NCBI GenBank assembly: GCA_029004185.1 | Contig: JAQUPB010000004.1 | Coordinates: forward strand, 1-52,679 | Direction of reading: 5' to 3' | Source of the DNA: Bacteroidales bacterium | GTDB lineage: Bacteria; Bacteroidota; Bacteroidia; Bacteroidales; JAHJDW01 | Length of the DNA: 52,679 nt | Shown: positions 4,577 through 13,651 of the stretch, in pieces | How the letters are laid out: each line of letters begins with the position of its first letter | Numbering within the stretch: the first letter of the stretch is position 1 | The notes under the pieces: generated by a model | The model's database searches: none | What the model saw: only the letters and a program-made list of their open reading frames with translations | Told to the model about the DNA's origin: nothing | Program-made: the position numbers and the translations under genes

Positions 4577-4639
4577 GAATTCTAGAAAGATTCTAACGAA
4601 TTCTAAAAATATCCCAGCGGATTCTAATTTGCTGTTGAC
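4577..4639 (+). promoter_or_regulatory. Three 21-bp-phased repeats upstream of LamG gene
   Basis: Cores GAATTCTA (4577-4584), GAATTCTA (4598-4605) and GGATTCTA (4619-4626) are spaced exactly 21 bp. An extra half-phase GATTCTA lies at 4589-4595. The middle 21-bp unit (4598-4618) is identical, base for base, to 10231-10251. The third unit ends in TTGAC, the upstream promoter element. Two-helical-turn spacing next to the promoter suggests binding sites for an activator; a LytTR-family regulator is encoded 1.4 kb downstream. Confidence 0.75.
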
Positions 4640-4664
4640 TTATGATTTATTTTTTGTATATTTG
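4635..4664 (+). promoter_or_regulatory. Bacteroidota-type promoter of the LamG gene
   Basis: TTGAC at 4635-4639 and TATATTTG at 4657-4664 match the Bacteroidota -33 and -7 (TAnnTTTG) elements, with 22 bp between their starts. The ATG lies 28 bp after the -7 element. The same arrangement is seen upstream of the gene at 10373. Confidence 0.75.
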
Positions 4665-4692
4665 TTTTTAATTAATTAAAAAAGAATAAATT

Positions 4693-5925
4693 ATGAAAAA
4701 ACTTTACATTTTATTAGTTGCGTTATTTACATTAAATGTAATGAATGCACAAAATTTAACTGACAGTTTATTGATTTATTATCCATTTACCGGTAATGCA
4801 AATGATGCCAGCGGGCATGGTTATAATGGTACTGTTTATGGGGCAACATTAACAGCAGATAGATTTGGAAATTCTAACAGCGCATACAATTTTCATGGAA
4901 CTGATGCTTATATTGACTTACCAAATGTAAGCAAACTGAAACCGCAATTACCATTTTCCGTTTCGCTATGGGTTTATTTTAATGATTTAAATAATTGTTA
5001 TCCGATTTTTACAACAGATTATTATGAATCAGGTTATACAGGGAGTTGGATAGGTATTAACACGATAAACCAAGATACAGTGATGATAATTAACTATGGT
5101 GATGGTGGCACAGTTGGCGACCCTGCTGCAAGAAGAAGTAAAGCAGGAACAACAAAAATGGTGAAAAATAAATGGTATCACGTTATTGGTATATGGAGAG
5201 GACCAACTGATATGGATATTTACATTGATTGTATAAATGATGGTGGCACTTATTCCGGTACAGGAAGTAATTTAGTTTATAGTAGTTACCCGGGAAGTAT
5301 TGGAAGAAAAAAATGTTCAATTGCTGGACCAACATCATATTGGTATTTAAACGGGAAAGTTGATGAAGTAAGGTTTTGGAACAGAGCATTAACACAGAAA
5401 GATATTGATAATTTATGTAATCCTTGTGGTACACCAATAATTGTATCTATTAATGGACTTAATTCTTCGTATGATAAAAATGATACCTGTCACACTCTGA
5501 CAGGAACACCATCTGGAGGAATATTATACGGAACCGGAGTTTACAATGGAAAATTTTGTCCAAATATACTTGATGTTGGTACTTATAATTTAGCTTATGT
5601 TTATAAAGATGCTGATGGGTGTTCGGGTGTAATTTGTCAAAGTGTCAATATAACAAATGTTGGCAATGTAAGTGAAAAAACAGAAAATAAAACAGATATA
5701 TTTATTTACCCCAATCCCGCAAACACTCAATTAACAATAGAAATTCCCCCAACAACAAAACAAAGTACAATTAAAATATACAATATAAACGGGGAAGAAC
5801 TAATAAAGCAACAAGCAAATACAAACAAAACAGAAATTGATGTAAGCAATTTAACAGGCGGAGTTTATTTTGTGAAAATTATAAACAAACAAGGTGTGAA
5901 TATTGGCAAGTTCGTTAAGGAGTAA
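4693..5925 (+). CDS. Secreted LamG-domain protein with T9SS sorting domain
   Basis: This 410-residue protein starts with a signal peptide (residues 1-19, ending NAQ). A LamG/concanavalin-like domain follows at about 25-235, with the usual DASGHGYNG, FSVSLWVYF and GKVDEVRFWNRALTQ landmarks; such domains bind carbohydrates or act as adhesion modules. A short linker with paired cysteines follows. The last 75 residues are a type A T9SS sorting domain (YPNPA, then GGVYFVKI and a lysine-rich end), so the protein should cross the outer membrane by T9SS and stay on the surface or be released. It has its own promoter with 21-bp-phased repeats, shared with the gene at 10373. The ligand is unknown. Confidence 0.85.
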   Translation: MKKLYILLVALFTLNVMNAQNLTDSLLIYYPFTGNANDASGHGYNGTVYGATLTADRFGNSNSAYNFHGTDAYIDLPNVSKLKPQLPFSVSLWVYFNDLNNCYPIFTTDYYESGYTGSWIGINTINQDTVMIINYGDGGTVGDPAARRSKAGTTKMVKNKWYHVIGIWRGPTDMDIYIDCINDGGTYSGTGSNLVYSSYPGSIGRKKCSIAGPTSYWYLNGKVDEVRFWNRALTQKDIDNLCNPCGTPIIVSINGLNSSYDKNDTCHTLTGTPSGGILYGTGVYNGKFCPNILDVGTYNLAYVYKDADGCSGVICQSVNITNVGNVSEKTENKTDIFIYPNPANTQLTIEIPPTTKQSTIKIYNINGEELIKQQANTNKTEIDVSNLTGGVYFVKIINKQGVNIGKFVKE

Positions 5926-5987
5926 AAAATAAATAGGATATTAGAAAGAAATCTGGAAAAGAAAATTTGCGGATTTATTTCTTTGTA

Positions 5988-6018
5988 TTTGTGCATTAAT
6001 AAAATTGATTTAAGTTTG
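5988..6018 (+). promoter_or_regulatory. Probable promoter of the LytTR regulator gene
   Basis: TTTG at 5988-5991 and TAAGTTTG at 6011-6018 fit the Bacteroidota -33/-7 pattern, with 23 bp between their starts. The ATG follows at 6056. No GAATTCTA-type repeats are present here, so the regulator does not appear to control itself through that site. Confidence 0.55.
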
Positions 6019-6055
6019 CATGTAATATTTAAAAATATAAAATTTATTTAGTAAT

Positions 6056-6805
6056 ATGTTAAAAACAATTATAGTAGAAGACGAATCAAATTCAAGAGAA
6101 CTCATAAGGAATATTTTAAAGCAATATTGCAGTTCAATTGTTTCGATTGCTGATGAAGCAACAGACGTTAAATCGGGAATTGAGAAAATTTTAAAGCATA
6201 AACCCGATCTGGTTTTTCTTGATATTAATTTGCCGGATGGTACGAGTTTCGATATTTTAAAAACAATTAAAAATGTCAACTTTAAAATAATTTTCATAAC
6301 TGCTTATGAGCAATATGCAATACAGGCAATTAAATGCAGTGCTTTGGATTTTATCATTAAGCCGGTTGATTACAAGGAACTTATTTCGGCTGTTGAAAAA
6401 GCAAATGAATCTTTTATTTCTGAAGAATACAGATTGAAGATTGAAACTCTGCTTAATAATACAAATGGAGTTTCGAGGCAGAACAAAAAAATAATTTTAA
6501 AATCATCAGAGAAGATTAACGTTATAAGCGTTAGTGAAATTATACGATGTGAATCGAAAAATAATTATACGCAGTTCTACTTATGTGATGGTTCAAATGT
6601 CCTGGTGTCCACAACGCTTAAAGATTACGAAGAATTGCTTATACCGTTCGGTTTTGTGAGGATTCACCAGTCGCATCTGGTAAATGTTGATTTTATTAAA
6701 AGTTATGATAAAAAAAGAGAATTAATTCAGATGAAAGATGGTTCCGATGTTCCTATCTCTGCGAGGAAAAAAGACGATCTGATAGAAATTCTGGAAAAAA
6801 TGTAA
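6056..6805 (+). CDS. LytTR-family response regulator
   Basis: This 249-residue cytoplasmic regulator has a receiver domain (about 1-120) with the acidic pair in VEDE, the phosphoacceptor Asp56 in FLDINLPDG and the conserved lysine in IIKPVDY. A LytTR DNA-binding domain follows at about 145-245 (KINVISVSEIIRCESKNNY, then FVRIHQSHLVN). LytTR proteins usually bind pairs of 9-10 bp direct repeats with about 21 bp between starts. The gene is followed after 165 bp by a propeller histidine kinase of the LytS type, its likely partner. The genes just outside the pair, at 4693 and 10373, both have 21-bp-phased repeats, so they are the prime candidate targets. Confidence 0.92.
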   Translation: MLKTIIVEDESNSRELIRNILKQYCSSIVSIADEATDVKSGIEKILKHKPDLVFLDINLPDGTSFDILKTIKNVNFKIIFITAYEQYAIQAIKCSALDFIIKPVDYKELISAVEKANESFISEEYRLKIETLLNNTNGVSRQNKKIILKSSEKINVISVSEIIRCESKNNYTQFYLCDGSNVLVSTTLKDYEELLIPFGFVRIHQSHLVNVDFIKSYDKKRELIQMKDGSDVPISARKKDDLIEILEKM

Positions 6806-6815
6806 AATTAAAATA

Positions 6816-6928
6816 GCCACAGATTCACAGATAATAATACTCTATTTATAAATAATGAATTTCTACTCAATGCAAACTATTAATCCTAAAGGATATTCAA
6901 ATATAAATTCAATCTGTGAATCTGTGGC
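6816..6928. repeat. Palindromic intergenic element, CACAGATT family, copy 2
   Basis: Arms of 17 bp (6816-6832 and 6912-6928), perfect inverted copies, enclose a 79-bp loop. Arm sequence is nearly that of the element at 1785-1839. It separates the LytTR regulator from its kinase gene and could act as a processing or attenuation hairpin, but a mobile repeat is equally possible. Confidence 0.75.
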
Positions 6929-6970
6929 TGTTTTAACTATCCGATATACATTATTGAGCCATTAATTTTT

Positions 6971-9900
6971 ATGTTAAAAAGAATTTGCCTGTTAATATTG
7001 TCTGCATCAGTTTTATTAAATGCAAATTCCCAAACTCCTTCTTTCAAACAATACACTGTAAAAGACGGTTTACCTTCGTCGGAAGTTTTTCATGTAATTC
7101 AGGACAGGCAGGGTTATATTTGGTTTGCAACAAACTTCGGAGTGAGCAAATTTGACGGATATAAATTCGAAAACTATAATACTTCAAATGGATTGCCCGA
7201 AAATTCCACACTCGAAATATACGAGGACTACAAAGGACGATTATGGTTTATATCCGTTTCATGCAAGCTATCATATTATTATAACGGTAAAATATACAAC
7301 TATAAATATAATGAGCAACTTCAAAAAGTCTTTAAGGAAACTCCAAATTACGTTAAGTTGGGGTTTAGGATTAATAAAAAAGAACATGTTTTTATTTGTG
7401 TGCATTATTACGGATTAATTGAAATTACAGATAAGGGAATTATTACAAAAAATGATTTTGGTTTATATAGGTCGCATATATTGTTTCCAAGTATAAAAGA
7501 AACATATATTATAGCAATATCATATATATTTGATTCTGATTCCTATTTGTTAAGAAGAAAAACAAGAGTAGTTATCAAAAATAATAATATTGAGAATAAA
7601 TTCACTTTTTATACTCCAAATGAAAAAAATGGAAATATTAGTAGCTTTAGTGTAGAAAATTCAGATCAGATAGTTTATACTATAAGTTCGCAACTATGCA
7701 TTCTTGAAAAAAATAAAATTATAAAATATTTTGAATTCCCATCTTTTATTACATGGCTGAACAAAGACTACGAAAACAACATATGGCTTTCAGTTTATAA
7801 AAACGGTTTATATTTTTATCGAAAGGGCAATTTTAATAATTCTCCTGAAAATTATTTTCCAGAAAAAACTGTTACAACAACATTAATAGATAAAGAAAAA
7901 GGATTGTGGGTTACTACTCTTGAAGATGGTGCTTTCTATATTCCTTCACATAAAATACGAAATTATTTTGATGAAAATACCTCCGATAATAATGTTAATT
8001 GCATTTTTGTTGAAAAAAACAATTCTTTTAAGGCAGGCAAGGATAATGGTATTATAATGTCAATAGAGAAAAATAAATTATTATTTGAACAAATTCCCGA
8101 TAAAGTTAAATCTAATATATACTGTTTATATAACAATAAACTAAATAATAAAACATGGCTTGGCACCTCACAATATTTATATTATATTTTCAATGGAAAA
8201 TATAAAAAAATAACCGGAGTTGCCGATACTGTGTTATTTTGGTATATAAATAAAAATAAGGTAGATAAAAAAACTATTCCCTCGTATCAACCTTTTTATC
8301 AGATTTATAATATTTTATTTAAAAGGAAATTTTTATATTTAGGTGTAAATCATGGTTTAGTTAAAGTTGAGGATGACGTAATTATTTATGATAGTTATTT
8401 ATGCAAAGATTTTGAACTAAAAACATATTCGCTTTCTGAAAGCAAAGACGGTGGAATATGGCTTGCAACAATAAATGGTTTGTGGAAGTTATATGAAACT
8501 GGTTCCGGAAAACAAACAAAATATAAGTACATAAACTACGGTAATAAAAACAAGCTTCTTAAAAACAGAATTAATGATGTTTGCGAAGTTAACGGTTTGG
8601 TGTTTGTTGGGACGGATGATTATGGGGTAGTAATTTTATCGGACGATTCGCTAAAACAGCAGTTCTTGGTTAGTAACGGACTTACAAGTAATAAAATTAC
8701 TTCATTATTTTATAGTAAAGGAATTCTTTGGGCGGCAACACTTAATGGATTGAATAAAATCGTTCTGAATACACGGAAATTAAATGATTCTAAAATAGAA
8801 AATTATACAACAATAAAGGGTTTGATTTCAAATGAAATCAACAAAGTTTATGTAAAAGATTCAAATGTTTATCTTGCCACAAAGGGAGGAATTACGATTT
8901 TTAATTATTATAAAACAACAGCCAATAATGTTCCCCCTCCGGTTTATATTACGAAAATACGAATAATGGAAAGGGATACTTCGGTTGGAAATAAATTCAA
9001 TTTAACATACAAACAAAATTATATTAATATTTCATTCGTAGGGCTATCGTACAGAAACGCAGGAAAGCTAATGTATAAATATAAACTTGAAGGAATTGAC
9101 AATAACTGGCATTATTCAACTATTAATTCAATAACATATCCGTTTATCCCTCACGGTGAATATAAATTTATGGTATATGCAAGCAACGAAGACGGGGTTT
9201 GGAGCATTAAGCCTGCTGTAATTGACTTTATTATTGCTCCGCCTTACTGGAAAACGTGGTGGTTCAGAACGATAGTTGTATTGGCAATTCTGATAATAAT
9301 TTCATCAATTTATATTATAACAATAAGGAATATTAAGAACAGAAACAAACTCGAAAAAAATCTCAATCATTTTATGTTTCAGGCATTGGGTAAGCAGATG
9401 AATCCGCATTTTATTTTCAATTCATTAAATTCAATAAATAATTTTATTTTAAAAAACGAAAAACTCGAATCGAGCAGATATCTGAGCAAGTTTGCAAGTC
9501 TGATGCGGTTGATTTTAAAAAACAGCCAGAGTCAGCTTGTGCCAATTAACGATGAAATAACTGCGGTTAAATTATATGTTGAGCTTGAGTCGCTGAGGTT
9601 TGATGATTGCTTTAGCTTTGAAGTAAAAATTGATGAAAAAATAAACCCCGAGGAAAATAAAATTCCTCCTTTGCTTATTCAGCCGTATGTCGAAAATGCA
9701 ATACTGCACGCACTTATGCCCAAAGAAGGAGAAAAAAGATTAAAACTGGAATGTAGTTTGAAAAAGGTTGATGAAAAAGAATTTATTTTATGCAGTATAG
9801 AAGATAATGGAATAGGAAGGGAAAAAGCATCGGAAATAAAACGTATAAAAAATATAAAACACCAGTCGTTTGGTACTGCTATAAACAAACAACGTATGGA

Positions 9901-10015
9901 TATACTTTATACAATTAAAAAAATGAATATTGAAATAAAATATACCGACCTTAAAGATGAAAACGGAAACGCATCGGGAACAAGAGTTGAATTGTTAATT
10001 CCAATCGTATCCTGA
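6971..10015 (+). CDS. Propeller-type sensor histidine kinase (LytS/YehU-like core)
   Basis: This 1014-residue membrane sensor begins with a signal peptide (about 1-20) and a long periplasmic region of two-component-propeller repeats (about 25-640; units such as YIWFATNFGVSKFDG and GLWVTTLEDG). A Y_Y_Y domain follows at about 660-750, then one membrane helix at about 765-787. The cytoplasmic core is a His_kinase (PF06580) domain with phosphoacceptor His813 in QMNPHFIFNSLNS, and an ATPase domain with PPLLIQPYVENAI and DNGIG. It lacks the fused receiver/AraC part of the hybrid PUL sensors and instead pairs with the LytTR regulator just upstream. The propeller probably senses an extracellular glycan or envelope signal; the ligand is unknown. 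Confidence 0.92.
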   Translation: MLKRICLLILSASVLLNANSQTPSFKQYTVKDGLPSSEVFHVIQDRQGYIWFATNFGVSKFDGYKFENYNTSNGLPENSTLEIYEDYKGRLWFISVSCKLSYYYNGKIYNYKYNEQLQKVFKETPNYVKLGFRINKKEHVFICVHYYGLIEITDKGIITKNDFGLYRSHILFPSIKETYIIAISYIFDSDSYLLRRKTRVVIKNNNIENKFTFYTPNEKNGNISSFSVENSDQIVYTISSQLCILEKNKIIKYFEFPSFITWLNKDYENNIWLSVYKNGLYFYRKGNFNNSPENYFPEKTVTTTLIDKEKGLWVTTLEDGAFYIPSHKIRNYFDENTSDNNVNCIFVEKNNSFKAGKDNGIIMSIEKNKLLFEQIPDKVKSNIYCLYNNKLNNKTWLGTSQYLYYIFNGKYKKITGVADTVLFWYINKNKVDKKTIPSYQPFYQIYNILFKRKFLYLGVNHGLVKVEDDVIIYDSYLCKDFELKTYSLSESKDGGIWLATINGLWKLYETGSGKQTKYKYINYGNKNKLLKNRINDVCEVNGLVFVGTDDYGVVILSDDSLKQQFLVSNGLTSNKITSLFYSKGILWAATLNGLNKIVLNTRKLNDSKIENYTTIKGLISNEINKVYVKDSNVYLATKGGITIFNYYKTTANNVPPPVYITKIRIMERDTSVGNKFNLTYKQNYINISFVGLSYRNAGKLMYKYKLEGIDNNWHYSTINSITYPFIPHGEYKFMVYASNEDGVWSIKPAVIDFIIAPPYWKTWWFRTIVVLAILIIISSIYIITIRNIKNRNKLEKNLNHFMFQALGKQMNPHFIFNSLNSINNFILKNEKLESSRYLSKFASLMRLILKNSQSQLVPINDEITAVKLYVELESLRFDDCFSFEVKIDEKINPEENKIPPLLIQPYVENAILHALMPKEGEKRLKLECSLKKVDEKEFILCSIEDNGIGREKASEIKRIKNIKHQSFGTAINKQRMDILYTIKKMNIEIKYTDLKDENGNASGTRVELLIPIVS

Positions 10016-10035
10016 TAGGTTTTTAACAAAAGAAT

Positions 10036-10110
10036 TTAGACGCAGATTGACGCAGAAAAATTATGATTATCTGCGTTTATCATAAACTTTCATAACAAAT
10101 CTGCGTCTAA
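10036..10110. repeat. Nested palindrome built on GACGCAGATT words
   Basis: Outer 13-bp arms (10036-10048 and 10098-10110) are perfect inverted copies, and an inner ACGCAG/CTGCGT pair lies inside. The left arm repeats GACGCAGA in tandem, echoing the doubled CACAGATT words of the other palindromes in this window. A T-run follows the right arm, so it may also terminate transcription of the kinase gene. Confidence 0.75.
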
Positions 10111-10209
10111 TTTTTTATATAATAGTGGCAAATCTCAACTTTCTCGAAAAAAATTATGATTTTATCTATAAAATATTGACTTTTCGACTTTTTCAAGGAT
10201 GATTTTCAC

Positions 10210-10272
10210 GAATTCTAAAAATATCCAAACGAATTCTAAAAATATCCCAGCGAATTCTAAAAAGCACTTGAC
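10210..10272 (+). promoter_or_regulatory. Three 21-bp-phased GAATTCTA repeats upstream of fibre-like gene
   Basis: Perfect GAATTCTA cores begin at 10210, 10231 and 10252, exactly 21 bp apart. The first two 21-bp units differ at only two positions. The third unit ends in TTGAC, the upstream promoter element, with 8 bp between core and TTGAC, exactly as at 4619-4639. The whole arrangement matches the other copy upstream of 4693 and suggests a shared activator. Confidence 0.78.
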
Positions 10273-10298
10273 TCGCAGTATTTCTTATTTTACGTTTG
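10268..10298 (+). promoter_or_regulatory. Bacteroidota-type promoter of the fibre-like operon
   Basis: TTGAC at 10268-10272 and TACGTTTG at 10291-10298 match the -33 and TAnnTTTG elements, with 23 bp between their starts. The ATG is about 75 bp downstream, leaving a long leader with a purine-rich AAAGAGTAGGGGAT stretch. Confidence 0.72.
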
Positions 10299-10372: not shown

Positions 10373-11434
10373 ATGAAAACAAAAGTTTTAATTTTAGTAA
10401 TAGCGTTTATTGCTATTTCATATTTAAATTATGGGCAAAGCACAACAGCAAGTAATACATTATCAGGAACACTGCCAACTTCACCAGCTCAGTACATTGG
10501 TTCAAGCAATTATGCAGATGTAATTTTTAAATCTAATGGAATTGAAAGGATGAGGATATTATCAACTGGAAATGTTGGTATTGGTAATTCAACAATTAAT
10601 TCAAAGTTACATATAGGAAATGGAAGTAACGGTTTGAATATACAATTAAGAGATTATGGATTCCTCGGAATTACTGGTTCGGCACAACAAGTAATAATAG
10701 GATATAATGTTAAATCAACTGCAGCAGGCGATAATACACCTATTGTAGCAAACACAAGTTCGACTGGTTATACTGCAATAAAACTTAATGGGGGAAATGG
10801 AGGTATGACTTTTTATACAAATAGTGGTAATGTTAATGCCGGTGATTTTGTTAGTGGGTCTTTAGCAAAAATGATAATTGATGGCAGTGGCAACGTTGGC
10901 ATAGGAACAACAACTCCAGCCCAAAAACTTGAAGTGAATGGTGCAATAAAAATTGGAACAACAACAACAGCAAGTCCCGGAACCATAAAATGGGATGGAA
11001 CAAATTTTATGGGTTACAACGGAACAAGCTGGTTAAATTTTGGAAGTTCAGTTTGGACAATAAATGGAAATAATATTTATAATAGTAATACTGGCAATGT
11101 TGGTATTGGAACAACAAATCCCGGCACATATAAACTTGCTGTTGTGGGAAGTATTCATGCGTATGAAGTTGTGGTAGAAACAAGCTGGAGTGATTTTGTT
11201 TTTGAGCAAAACTACAAACTGAGAACACTTGCAGAAGTTGAAAAATATATAAATGAACACAAACATTTGCCCGATGTTCCTTCCGCTTCAGATGTTGAAA
11301 AGAATGGCGTAAACCTTGGTAAAACCGATGCCATTCTTTTACAAAAAATCGAAGAACTTACTCTTTATATGATTGAGTTGAAAAAGGAAAATGAAAACCT
11401 CAGACAACGAATAGCAAGCATTGAAAACAAATAG
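10373..11434 (+). CDS. Secreted tail-fibre-like protein with coiled-coil C-terminus
   Basis: This 353-residue protein has a signal peptide (about 1-21). Its body carries repeated GNVGIGTTTPAQKLEV-type units (about residues 66-85, 174-195 and 242-262), the beta-rich repeats found in trimeric fibre and adhesin-like proteins of Bacteroidota. The C-terminal part (about 272-353) has the conserved block KLRTLAEVEKYINEHKHLP, followed by a heptad-rich coiled coil. The block resembles the intramolecular chaperone-like tails of phage fibres (peptidase S74-like), but no autocleavage motif can be confirmed. It lacks an obvious T9SS domain. The next gene begins 27 bp later, so they form an operon controlled by the phased-repeat promoter. 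A surface fibre role is inferred. Confidence 0.75.
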   Translation: MKTKVLILVIAFIAISYLNYGQSTTASNTLSGTLPTSPAQYIGSSNYADVIFKSNGIERMRILSTGNVGIGNSTINSKLHIGNGSNGLNIQLRDYGFLGITGSAQQVIIGYNVKSTAAGDNTPIVANTSSTGYTAIKLNGGNGGMTFYTNSGNVNAGDFVSGSLAKMIIDGSGNVGIGTTTPAQKLEVNGAIKIGTTTTASPGTIKWDGTNFMGYNGTSWLNFGSSVWTINGNNIYNSNTGNVGIGTTNPGTYKLAVVGSIHAYEVVVETSWSDFVFEQNYKLRTLAEVEKYINEHKHLPDVPSASDVEKNGVNLGKTDAILLQKIEELTLYMIELKKENENLRQRIASIENK

Positions 11435-11461
11435 TTATTGAACAATAAAGGATTATTTAAA

Positions 11462-13651
11462 ATGAAGAATTATTGTTTGATAATATCAGGATTGTTGTTT
11501 TTGTTCGTGAACATAAATGCGTATTCACAAATGCAGGAACAACAAGATGCTGACAATGAATGTAAATACTGGCACTACAGGGAAAGATTAAAATATTTTG
11601 TGTATTCTGGAGAATGGCTTGGCGAAAGTCATATAGTAGGGATAAGAAATATTAATAATACCGGACGACTTGATATAGTTAATGGTCAGCACTGTAAATA
11701 CTGGGGGTTATATGTGGGCATGCTGGCTACGGAATATAAAATTCTTTCAATGCAAGGTAAAGATTACAGTAAAACATTAAAGGAATTGTGCTATGCTTTT
11801 ATGACACTTGAAAAAAAGATGGACACTTATTCTAATTTTCCGGGAGATGATATATGGTGGTTAAATGGTTTTTTTGTACGATGTCCTAATTATTTTTATC
11901 AGTTAAATAAAAATATAAATACTCATAATTTTTTCCACGATATAGATGAAGTTACAGGTTACTGTAAGCCCAATGAACATATGAATAAAATGAATGAAGG
12001 ATTTTATCTGGAAGACCCACCTTTATTTAACTATACAATATGCTCAGATTATAAAAAATGGAATTCTAATTACATGTGGGATGAGAAGACCAATAGTTAT
12101 GGGGATTTACCTCGTGGAAGACCAGGCTATGCTGACTACATAGAAAAAGAAGGAGGAGAATACTCAATACCATCTCTTGATGCAATGAGCCAGGATGAAG
12201 TAACAGGTATTTTGTTGGGTCTTTCACTTGTAAAAAAAATGCTCCCTGACAATTACATAAAAATTCAACTTAATGATGTTTACCATTATGATATTAATTT
12301 TGTACAAGATGCAAATATGATGGCACAGAATATTATCGAATATATGTGTGAAAGTCCCTATGTATATAATTATGGAGATTGGCCGGGGCAAAGTCATCAT
12401 TGGATAATTTATCAACCTAATGGCAGTGAAGTTTCTGCGGGTGCAGATGCAAGGTGGGCGGCACCGGCATATTATGACATCTATAAAAACTTTTTTGGTG
12501 GTACAATTAATATGGATATGCCTGGAATTTATTATACTGATCGGTGGAAATTCTATGTAAATACTCAACCCATGAATGATTCTCAATTCTTAATATTATT
12601 AGCAATAGCTGATAATAAGGGAAGTGAAACGGAACAAAAAATTTATAGTGTTGCATACGGAAACAATAGCCAGACTTTTAACTGGGAAACGTTTTATTTA
12701 TTATTTTGGGCTGTATTACACGATAAACAGATAACACAAATTCCGAATAACAATAAAAAAATAAGAGACCAGATAAATTCTGCTCCTTTCGAGGGTCCTT
12801 ATTGTTATTCAAGCACTATTAAAGCTCCTTATGGCTGGGCGGGTTCATATAAATGGTTTTATGATGGAGATGAACAAAATAATGGCAATCCGGGTTTTTA
12901 TGGTACATTTAACGGTACTGATTATATGCTATTATACAATCTTTATAAAATTTATTCAACAACAAAAGCACCATTAGCCGATTGCTATCCTTATATGATA
13001 CCAGTTCATCCATTTCCAACGTATTCATTCGGTTCTAAAGCCATTCCTGGTTATAATAACTATATGGGTGGTGTTGATGTTACTTCACAAATACTAAATC
13101 ATGTATGCAACAACCCAAGTTTATCAGGGGGCGATAATGTTGGTAGTGTTCAGATAATAGCAGACAAAATAACATTAAAGCCGGGTTTCAAAGCAGAAAA
13201 CGGAGTTTATTTTAAAGCACATGCAATTCTTTCAGTAGAAAATTATTGCCCAGACGAAATTTCATTATTTTCACGTACTCAAGGTACATCAAGTAAAACT
13301 CCAATCGCATATTTAATAGATAATAGTACTGATAAATCAACATCTGATATCCGCCAGAATAAAAACTCCGAAATTTCCAAAGAAAGCAAATCAATTCAGG
13401 ATCTGAAAATTTTTCCAAACCCATTTTCAAATTTAACAACTATAAATTACAATATTGCAGAAGACGAAAATATTAAAATATGCGTTTATGATGTAATGAA
13501 TAAAAAAGTTGCTGAGTTGGTGAACGAATACAAGCAAAGCGGGGAGCATAATATTGTTTTTGATGGTTCAAATTTGGATAAAGGAATTTATTTTTGCACA
13601 ATAGAAACAGAAGGATATAGAAAAACAGAAAAAATAGTTTTAATAAAGTAG
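11462..13651 (+). CDS. Large secreted T9SS protein of unknown function
   Basis: The ATG at 11462 is preferred to a TTG at 11438 because it places a good signal peptide at residues 1-23 (ending AYSQ). The 729-residue protein has a Trp/Tyr-rich region (about 25-520) with motifs such as GDDIWWLNGFFVRCP, DAMSQDEVTGILLGLSL and GADARWAAPAYYDIY. Spacing of helices and aromatic residues is reminiscent of an alpha/alpha-toroid glycan-active fold, but this is not established. A short segment near 570-590 (ADKITLKPGFKAENGVYFKA) is the coathanger-stack-type repeat common in Bacteroidota exported proteins. The last 80 residues are a type A T9SS domain (IFPNPFSN to KGIYFCTIET). It is co-transcribed with the fibre-like gene. 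Confidence 0.7.
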   Translation: MKNYCLIISGLLFLFVNINAYSQMQEQQDADNECKYWHYRERLKYFVYSGEWLGESHIVGIRNINNTGRLDIVNGQHCKYWGLYVGMLATEYKILSMQGKDYSKTLKELCYAFMTLEKKMDTYSNFPGDDIWWLNGFFVRCPNYFYQLNKNINTHNFFHDIDEVTGYCKPNEHMNKMNEGFYLEDPPLFNYTICSDYKKWNSNYMWDEKTNSYGDLPRGRPGYADYIEKEGGEYSIPSLDAMSQDEVTGILLGLSLVKKMLPDNYIKIQLNDVYHYDINFVQDANMMAQNIIEYMCESPYVYNYGDWPGQSHHWIIYQPNGSEVSAGADARWAAPAYYDIYKNFFGGTINMDMPGIYYTDRWKFYVNTQPMNDSQFLILLAIADNKGSETEQKIYSVAYGNNSQTFNWETFYLLFWAVLHDKQITQIPNNNKKIRDQINSAPFEGPYCYSSTIKAPYGWAGSYKWFYDGDEQNNGNPGFYGTFNGTDYMLLYNLYKIYSTTKAPLADCYPYMIPVHPFPTYSFGSKAIPGYNNYMGGVDVTSQILNHVCNNPSLSGGDNVGSVQIIADKITLKPGFKAENGVYFKAHAILSVENYCPDEISLFSRTQGTSSKTPIAYLIDNSTDKSTSDIRQNKNSEISKESKSIQDLKIFPNPFSNLTTINYNIAEDENIKICVYDVMNKKVAELVNEYKQSGEHNIVFDGSNLDKGIYFCTIETEGYRKTEKIVLIK

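Follow-up and report, generated by a model that had tools for sequence, protein, structure and literature searches.

Arrays and promoters in the window

The stretch of DNA analysed here (the window, 52,679 nucleotides of a Bacteroidales bacterium) contains a LytTR response regulator gene and a sensor kinase gene lying between two promoters, each preceded by an array of direct repeats. Are these repeats the operators of the regulator encoded between them and, if so, how far does its regulon extend? The arrays are very probably operators of this LytTR regulator, as arrays of this geometry also lie beside the genes of related regulators and the core changes with the regulator. Phosphorylated by the neighbouring kinase, the regulator would recruit RNA polymerase at some 13–15 promoters of the genome, a reading as a whole to which we give a probability of about 0.88. 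The coordinates are collected in Table 1.

Table 1. Features of the window around the regulator and kinase genes.
Feature	Position	Strand	Basis and details
Putative operator array 1	4577..4626	+	cores 4577-4584 (GAATTCTA), 4598-4605 (GAATTCTA), 4619-4626 (GGATTCTA); 21-bp steps; profile R1, 73.7 bits
Promoter 1	4635..4664	+	-33 TTGAC 4635-4639; -7 TATATTTG 4657-4664
Predicted target gene 1, LamG (Laminin_G_3) protein with type IX Por_Secre_tail	4693..5925	+	Pfam
Probable promoter region of the regulator gene, array-free	5989..6055	+	sequence
LytTR response regulator	6056..6805	+	receiver domain, then LytTR DNA-binding domain; Pfam Response_reg 1.9e-21, LytTR 8.4e-18
Sensor kinase, Reg_prop propeller + Y_Y_Y + His_kinase (LytS-type, PF06580)	6971..10015	+	adjoins the regulator gene; Pfam, His_kinase 4.4e-21
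Putative operator array 2	10210..10259	+	cores 10210-10217, 10231-10238, 10252-10259 (all GAATTCTA); 21-bp steps; profile 84.9 bits
Promoter 2	10268..10298	+	-33 TTGAC 10268-10272; -7 TACGTTTG 10291-10298
Predicted target gene 2a, secreted fibre-like protein, C-terminal coiled coil	10373..11434	+	sequence, Pfam; no confident family
Predicted target gene 2b, type IX Por_Secre_tail protein	11438..13651	+	Pfam; 3 bp after 2a, same strand

The sequence-only reading had described paired arrays with 21-bp steps, an 8-bp gap, TTGAC and TAnnTTTG elements and identical middle units, and on re-check this description is exact to the base. The gap between the third core and TTGAC is exactly 8 bp in both arrays, the start of TTGAC precedes that of the -7 element by 22 bp in promoter 1 and 23 bp in promoter 2, and no base differs over the 21 bp of the middle units, 4598-4618 and 10231-10251. 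The elements of promoter 1 correspond to the -33 and -7 elements of the Bacteroidota sigma-A type consensus. A GATTCTA at 4589 in array 1 is out of register with the cores, and no further ATTCTA pair at lag 21 occurs in the window beyond the two arrays. The region ahead of the regulator gene (5989-6055) is without an array, and therefore no sign of autoregulation is seen. The best NCBIfam profile for the regulator is BtsR, with a score under the cut-off of that profile. Inverted repeats of the CCACAGATTCACAG...CTGTGAATCTGTGG and ACGCAGATTGACGCAG kind are also present in the gap between regulator and kinase genes (6812-6937) and past the kinase gene (10030-10112); they look like REP-type hairpins.

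Array copies in the genome and the genes behind them

The whole genome (3.24 Mb) was searched by pattern and with a sequence-only profile built from 13 arrays, a search that the sequence-only reading had proposed and that found the same promoter 13 times. With up to two mismatches, the two-core pattern gave 33 matches versus 2 for the reversed pattern, and ATTCTA-N15-ATTCTA-N8-TTG occurs exactly at 12 places and with one mismatch at a thirteenth. The 13 strong arrays, on 11 contigs, score from 71.8 to 87 bits, as expected of sequences from which the profile was built; the informative part is the gap below, the next places being C48 (39.8 bits) and then C5 (27.7 bits). The two window arrays reach E-values of 8e-24 and 3e-20, both being among the sequences that built the profile. 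The arrays are far beyond chance. The weaker arrays at C48 and C5 have ATACT-type cores and lie ahead of secreted repeat proteins, that of C5 with a type IX tail. A place on C86 (26.4 bits, profile R1) was left out, as its second core was not seen. All 13 strong arrays, which were chosen by fixed geometry, have three cores spaced by 21 bp, the first being imperfect in some; a recognisable -7 element is found in nearly all and T-rich DNA ahead of the first core in most. The profile search returned no further copy of full strength in another geometry.

The genes behind the arrays form a heterogeneous set. Type IX tails are found in both units of the window, in two units on C46, and in those on C248 and C221, the last with a subtilisin bearing the tail as second gene. 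The Por_Secre_tail domain is in the first gene of 4 of the 13 units; when the second gene is counted as well, 6 of the 13 have it. Type IX sorting domains occur in at least 150 genes of this genome, roughly 5%, and the binomial p is about 0.004 for the first gene and about 0.001 for the first two, assuming 2800 genes. The enrichment of type IX genes behind the arrays is moderate. The remaining targets are without Por_Secre_tail: a secreted protein truncated where the contig ends (C142), a GxxExxY PD-(D/E)XK protein (C1), two related tandem ORF6N-domain genes behind one array (C42; L033 7325-8454), DUF5618 (C106), a Y1 transposase-like ORF (Y1_Tnp) 356 bp away from its array (C126), a RecD-like helicase fragment (C192), and ssb followed by gldD in one unit (C235; L039 438-1663). 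This last unit ties the gliding and type IX machinery to the array regulon, GldD being a gliding lipoprotein. A competence-like reading, suggested by ssb, the helicase and a ComE-like regulator, was dropped, since DNA-uptake genes are absent from the 13 targets.

The proposed link between the arrays and type IX-exported proteins holds in this genome, and the predicted regulon also takes in ssb-gldD, the helicase, GxxExxY, ORF6N, DUF5618 and the Y1 transposase. Arrays ahead of many unrelated genes had been named as evidence against the proposal, and this is in part what is observed, several targets not being surface proteins. The compact module first envisaged is too small a description for 13 strong arrays on 11 contigs and two weaker ones with such targets.

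The full motif was found in none of 59 relatives, and none of 294 genomes of the order had a comparable profile score (best outsider, 23.9 bits); arrays in genomes devoid of the regulator, which would have spoken against the proposal, were hence not seen among these 294. The exact pattern gave 28 matches in 84,980 GTDB species, a collection from which near records of this genome may be missing, and all were low-complexity AATTCTAAATTCTAAA runs or lone chance matches. Viral contigs had no match to the motif. In the sister genome, from the same family, a single clear array is present, and some of the weak profile matches in relatives adjoin close LytTR homologues. The expansion to 13 promoters is private to this genome.

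Arrays beside LytTR genes of relatives

About 120 related LytTR loci were compared, 60 and then 60 more distant ones, with a motif-blind scan for intergenic 9-mers repeated with at most one change at lags of 12–40. Directly beside the LytTR genes of the first 60 loci, lag 21 was represented by 25 pairs and the other lags by 0–10 (mean 3), an excess with a Poisson p of about 2e-15. The more distant loci gave 16 pairs at lag 21 versus a mean of 3.4 and a maximum of 7, with the same thresholds except that "beside" meant 60 bp instead of 50. Control loci of the same order were not enriched (6 at lag 21, 0–8 at the others). Most arrays are found no more than about 200 bp from the LytTR gene, on its 3' side, and point into the gene that follows; at about half of the related LytTR genes, no lag-21 array adjoins. 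The cores vary among loci and include CCGTTAACTGATT, ACCGTTTAC, CGTTCA, CCGAATTTA, CGAATATT and GCACGTTCAACC, among others.

CGAAT cores like those of the window occur at lag 21 at six places in 289 kb around LytTR homologues, versus five in total over 19 other lags. Whether related genomes keep arrays near the regulator had been posed as a check, and CGAAT-type arrays do adjoin close homologues of the window regulator in G001, G047, G040, G098 and G067, usually just 3' of the gene. In G001, of the same family, the LytTR gene is followed closely on its 3' side by three cores (CGAAAATTA/CGAATATTC/CGAATATTA), the last of which stops 8 bp short of TTG; an 8-bp gap is also seen in G047, and G040, G098 and G067 have CGAAT pairs 3' of their LytTR genes. 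Outside this genome, the genome-wide CGAAT pattern gave 45 matches in register (N12) versus 35 in an off-register control (N11), and alone it is therefore uninformative at that scale. The partner kinase in G047, G040 and G001 is of the TPR type, so that the sensor part appears to have been exchanged while the output stays. The tie between arrays and type IX-exported proteins holds in relatives as in this genome: the G001 and G047 arrays precede type IX-tail genes, the tail match of G047 being in a gene farther down the same stretch. The G098 array precedes a secreted Fib_succ_major protein.

Other arrays were also seen in relatives. Five of them (L200, L204, L277, L294, L299) share a second LytTR module, in which an array of the CCGTTAACT or CCGTTTACT type follows the LytTR gene on its 3' side and is itself followed by a conserved membrane protein of about 152 residues and a TonB-dependent receptor-like gene. 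A similar TonB-dependent-type receptor lies beside the C188 LytTR gene of this genome (L288). At L194 (G046), separate triple CGTTCA arrays with 21-bp spacing are found at 10524 and 14023 near one LytTR gene, one of them preceding an esterase with a type IX tail.

Core and recognition residue

In the alignment of the classed regulators, two positions separate those with CGAAT from those with CGTT arrays: 205 (Gln versus Lys) and 149 (Lys/Arg versus mostly Ser/Pro). Residue 205 is Gln in six of seven CGAAT regulators and Lys in all 10 CGTT regulators (6:0 versus 0:10, Fisher p 1.2e-4), with the core classes labelled after the arrays were seen and the tree offering only 1–2 independent residue-core pairs, a number insufficient for significance. 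All CGAAT regulators fall in one supported clade of 36, along with one CGTT regulator (Lys205). At no locus does Gln205 accompany a CGTT array or Lys205 a CGAAT pair; the remaining Gln205 regulators have other cores or none. Gln205 of the window regulator, in an H-Q-S motif, aligns with Asn201 of AgrA, one of three AgrA residues with specific base contacts (PMC11039898). This contact set comprises His169, Asn201 and Arg233, and the position of Arg233 is a conserved Arg in our alignment. AgrA was reached via the LytTR-domain profile, phmmer with the full regulator giving receiver-domain structures only among its best 60. The hypothesis that the core follows the regulator residue has good support from these comparisons. 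A wider code for the order, in which residues 205 and 149 would set the core of an array just 3' of the gene (Gln with Lys/Arg, CGAAT; Lys with Ser, CCGTTAACT; Lys with Pro, CCGTTYAC), is a tentative proposal that we place somewhat below even odds.

These data bear on the identity of the binding protein. Regulators of the AraC/XylS family, many of which are found in Bacteroidota, bind direct repeats that are likewise spaced by about 21 bp and adjoin the -35 element, and by geometry alone such a protein could bind the arrays. However, 21-bp arrays cluster specifically beside LytTR genes, their cores vary with the LytTR recognition residue, and the conserved block of about 12 bp per 21-bp unit is shorter than a two-HTH AraC half-site, which makes an AraC/XylS regulator improbable here. 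Ownership of the CGAATTCTA arrays by another of the five LytTR regulators of the genome is still less probable. Although 11 of the 13 arrays have neither the window regulator nor any other LytTR gene nearby, it is only the window regulator that CGAATTCTA arrays flank, and it alone of the five has Gln205. The C22 and C188 LytTR genes adjoin arrays of a different, CCGTT/CCGWWAAC-type core (ACCGTTTA/ACCGTTCA and CCGTAAACTT/CCGATAACTT, respectively), and the C39 and C43 proteins have His-Arg-Ser and His-Lys-Ser where CGAAT regulators carry His-Gln-Ser.

Conservation between the copies

The 13 arrays could also owe their likeness to a mobile promoter cassette copied through the genome, and not to co-regulation. 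Several downstream genes are of a scattered or mobile kind (GxxExxY, ORF6N, DUF5618, Y1_Tnp) and the expansion is private to this genome. Identity between copies, however, is 91–96% in the cores and TTGAC and 59–75% in the linkers, and drops upstream, downstream and in the -33/-7 spacer to 34–38%, the level of unrelated AT-rich DNA. Any copying would therefore have to date back a long time, with selection acting on the cores since then, and we consider a cassette about as improbable as another LytTR owner. With cores conserved among unrelated flanks and spacers, it is function, and not recent copying, that would keep the arrays; the pattern fits binding-site selection. The least credible alternative is that the arrays are DNA-bending phased A-tracts or an UP element: A5 and AATT tracts do recur in every unit, once in two turns, but conservation (91–96%) extends to the non-A core bases C, G and CTA and related regulators have arrays with quite different, non-A-tract cores.

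Proposed mechanism and significance

In the LytTR operator reading, the propeller kinase would sense a signal, presumably from outside the cell, and phosphorylate the regulator, whose LytTR domains would bind all three cores from the same face of the DNA, with two helical turns between one core and the next. Bound just upstream of the -33 element, the regulator would recruit RNA polymerase. We infer activation rather than repression because the array ends 8 bp upstream of -33. The regulator would probably switch on genes for exported surface proteins, along with an assortment of others.

Pairs of a LytTR regulator and a propeller or TPR kinase occur commonly in Bacteroidota. The present analysis would link one such sensor to 13–15 promoters, among them the promoters of the ssb-gldD unit and of surface proteins exported by type IX secretion, and points to private expansion of a regulon through promoter evolution. 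It also suggests a route from regulator to targets: lag-21 repeats are sought just 3' of a LytTR gene, the core is taken and the genome is scanned with it. If the residue-core code were true, sequence could reveal the operators, and with them entire regulons, of hundreds of sensor pairs that have yet to be studied.

Comparison with known systems

BtsS/BtsR and YpdA/YpdB of E. coli likewise pair a LytS-type kinase with a LytTR regulator and have direct repeats at 21-bp steps; they are known for one transporter each, whereas 13–15 promoters, many for type IX-exported proteins, are concerned here. AgrA of S. aureus and ComE of S. pneumoniae are also LytTR-domain response regulators with a partner kinase; their operators lie upstream of a promoter and consist of direct repeats of about 9 bp, with about 21 bp from one start to the next. 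Their two repeats have a ACAGTTAAG-like core, in contrast to three repeats of CGAATTCTA here, and AgrA has Asn201 where the window regulator has Gln; the window also differs in its propeller kinase and Bacteroidota promoter, and no autoinducer genes were seen alongside. The canonical LytTR core [TA][AC][CA]GTTN[AG][TG] is not matched by the window core ACGAATTCTA, which keeps CG and has GAA in place of GTT. The non-canonical core makes this less of a canonical site and does not lessen the membership of the protein in the LytTR family.

Three-repeat LytTR operators with two-turn steps have been proven for CoxC and reported for RcoM1, and the cores of CoxC and RcoM likewise depart from the canonical one (PMC11347149). 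These proteins are one-component CO sensors whose operators (TTCNNGCA/TTNNNGCN) differ in sequence from the window cores, although here too three direct repeats at two-turn intervals would be read by LytTR domains. The three-repeat CoxC sites overlap -35 and repress (PMC11347149), whereas the window arrays end 8 bp upstream of -33. Comparable in arrangement are the LytTR-associated CCGTTAAC arrays of relatives, which have 21-bp steps, lie directly 3' of the LytTR gene and read into the next gene; they differ in their CCGTT core, in Lys205/Ser149 of the regulator and in their targets, a small membrane protein and a TonB-dependent receptor-like gene. In the open-licence literature we found no paper on LytTR operators in Bacteroidota, nor an operator or regulon of a Bacteroidota LytTR regulator with a propeller or TPR kinase. 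Direct repeats spaced by about 21 bp as a typical feature of LytTR sites, and triple sites for RcoM1 and CoxC, were already known; what is new is the putative operator and regulon of a LytTR regulator paired with a propeller kinase, the rule of 3' arrays in this order, and the proposed correspondence between residue and core.
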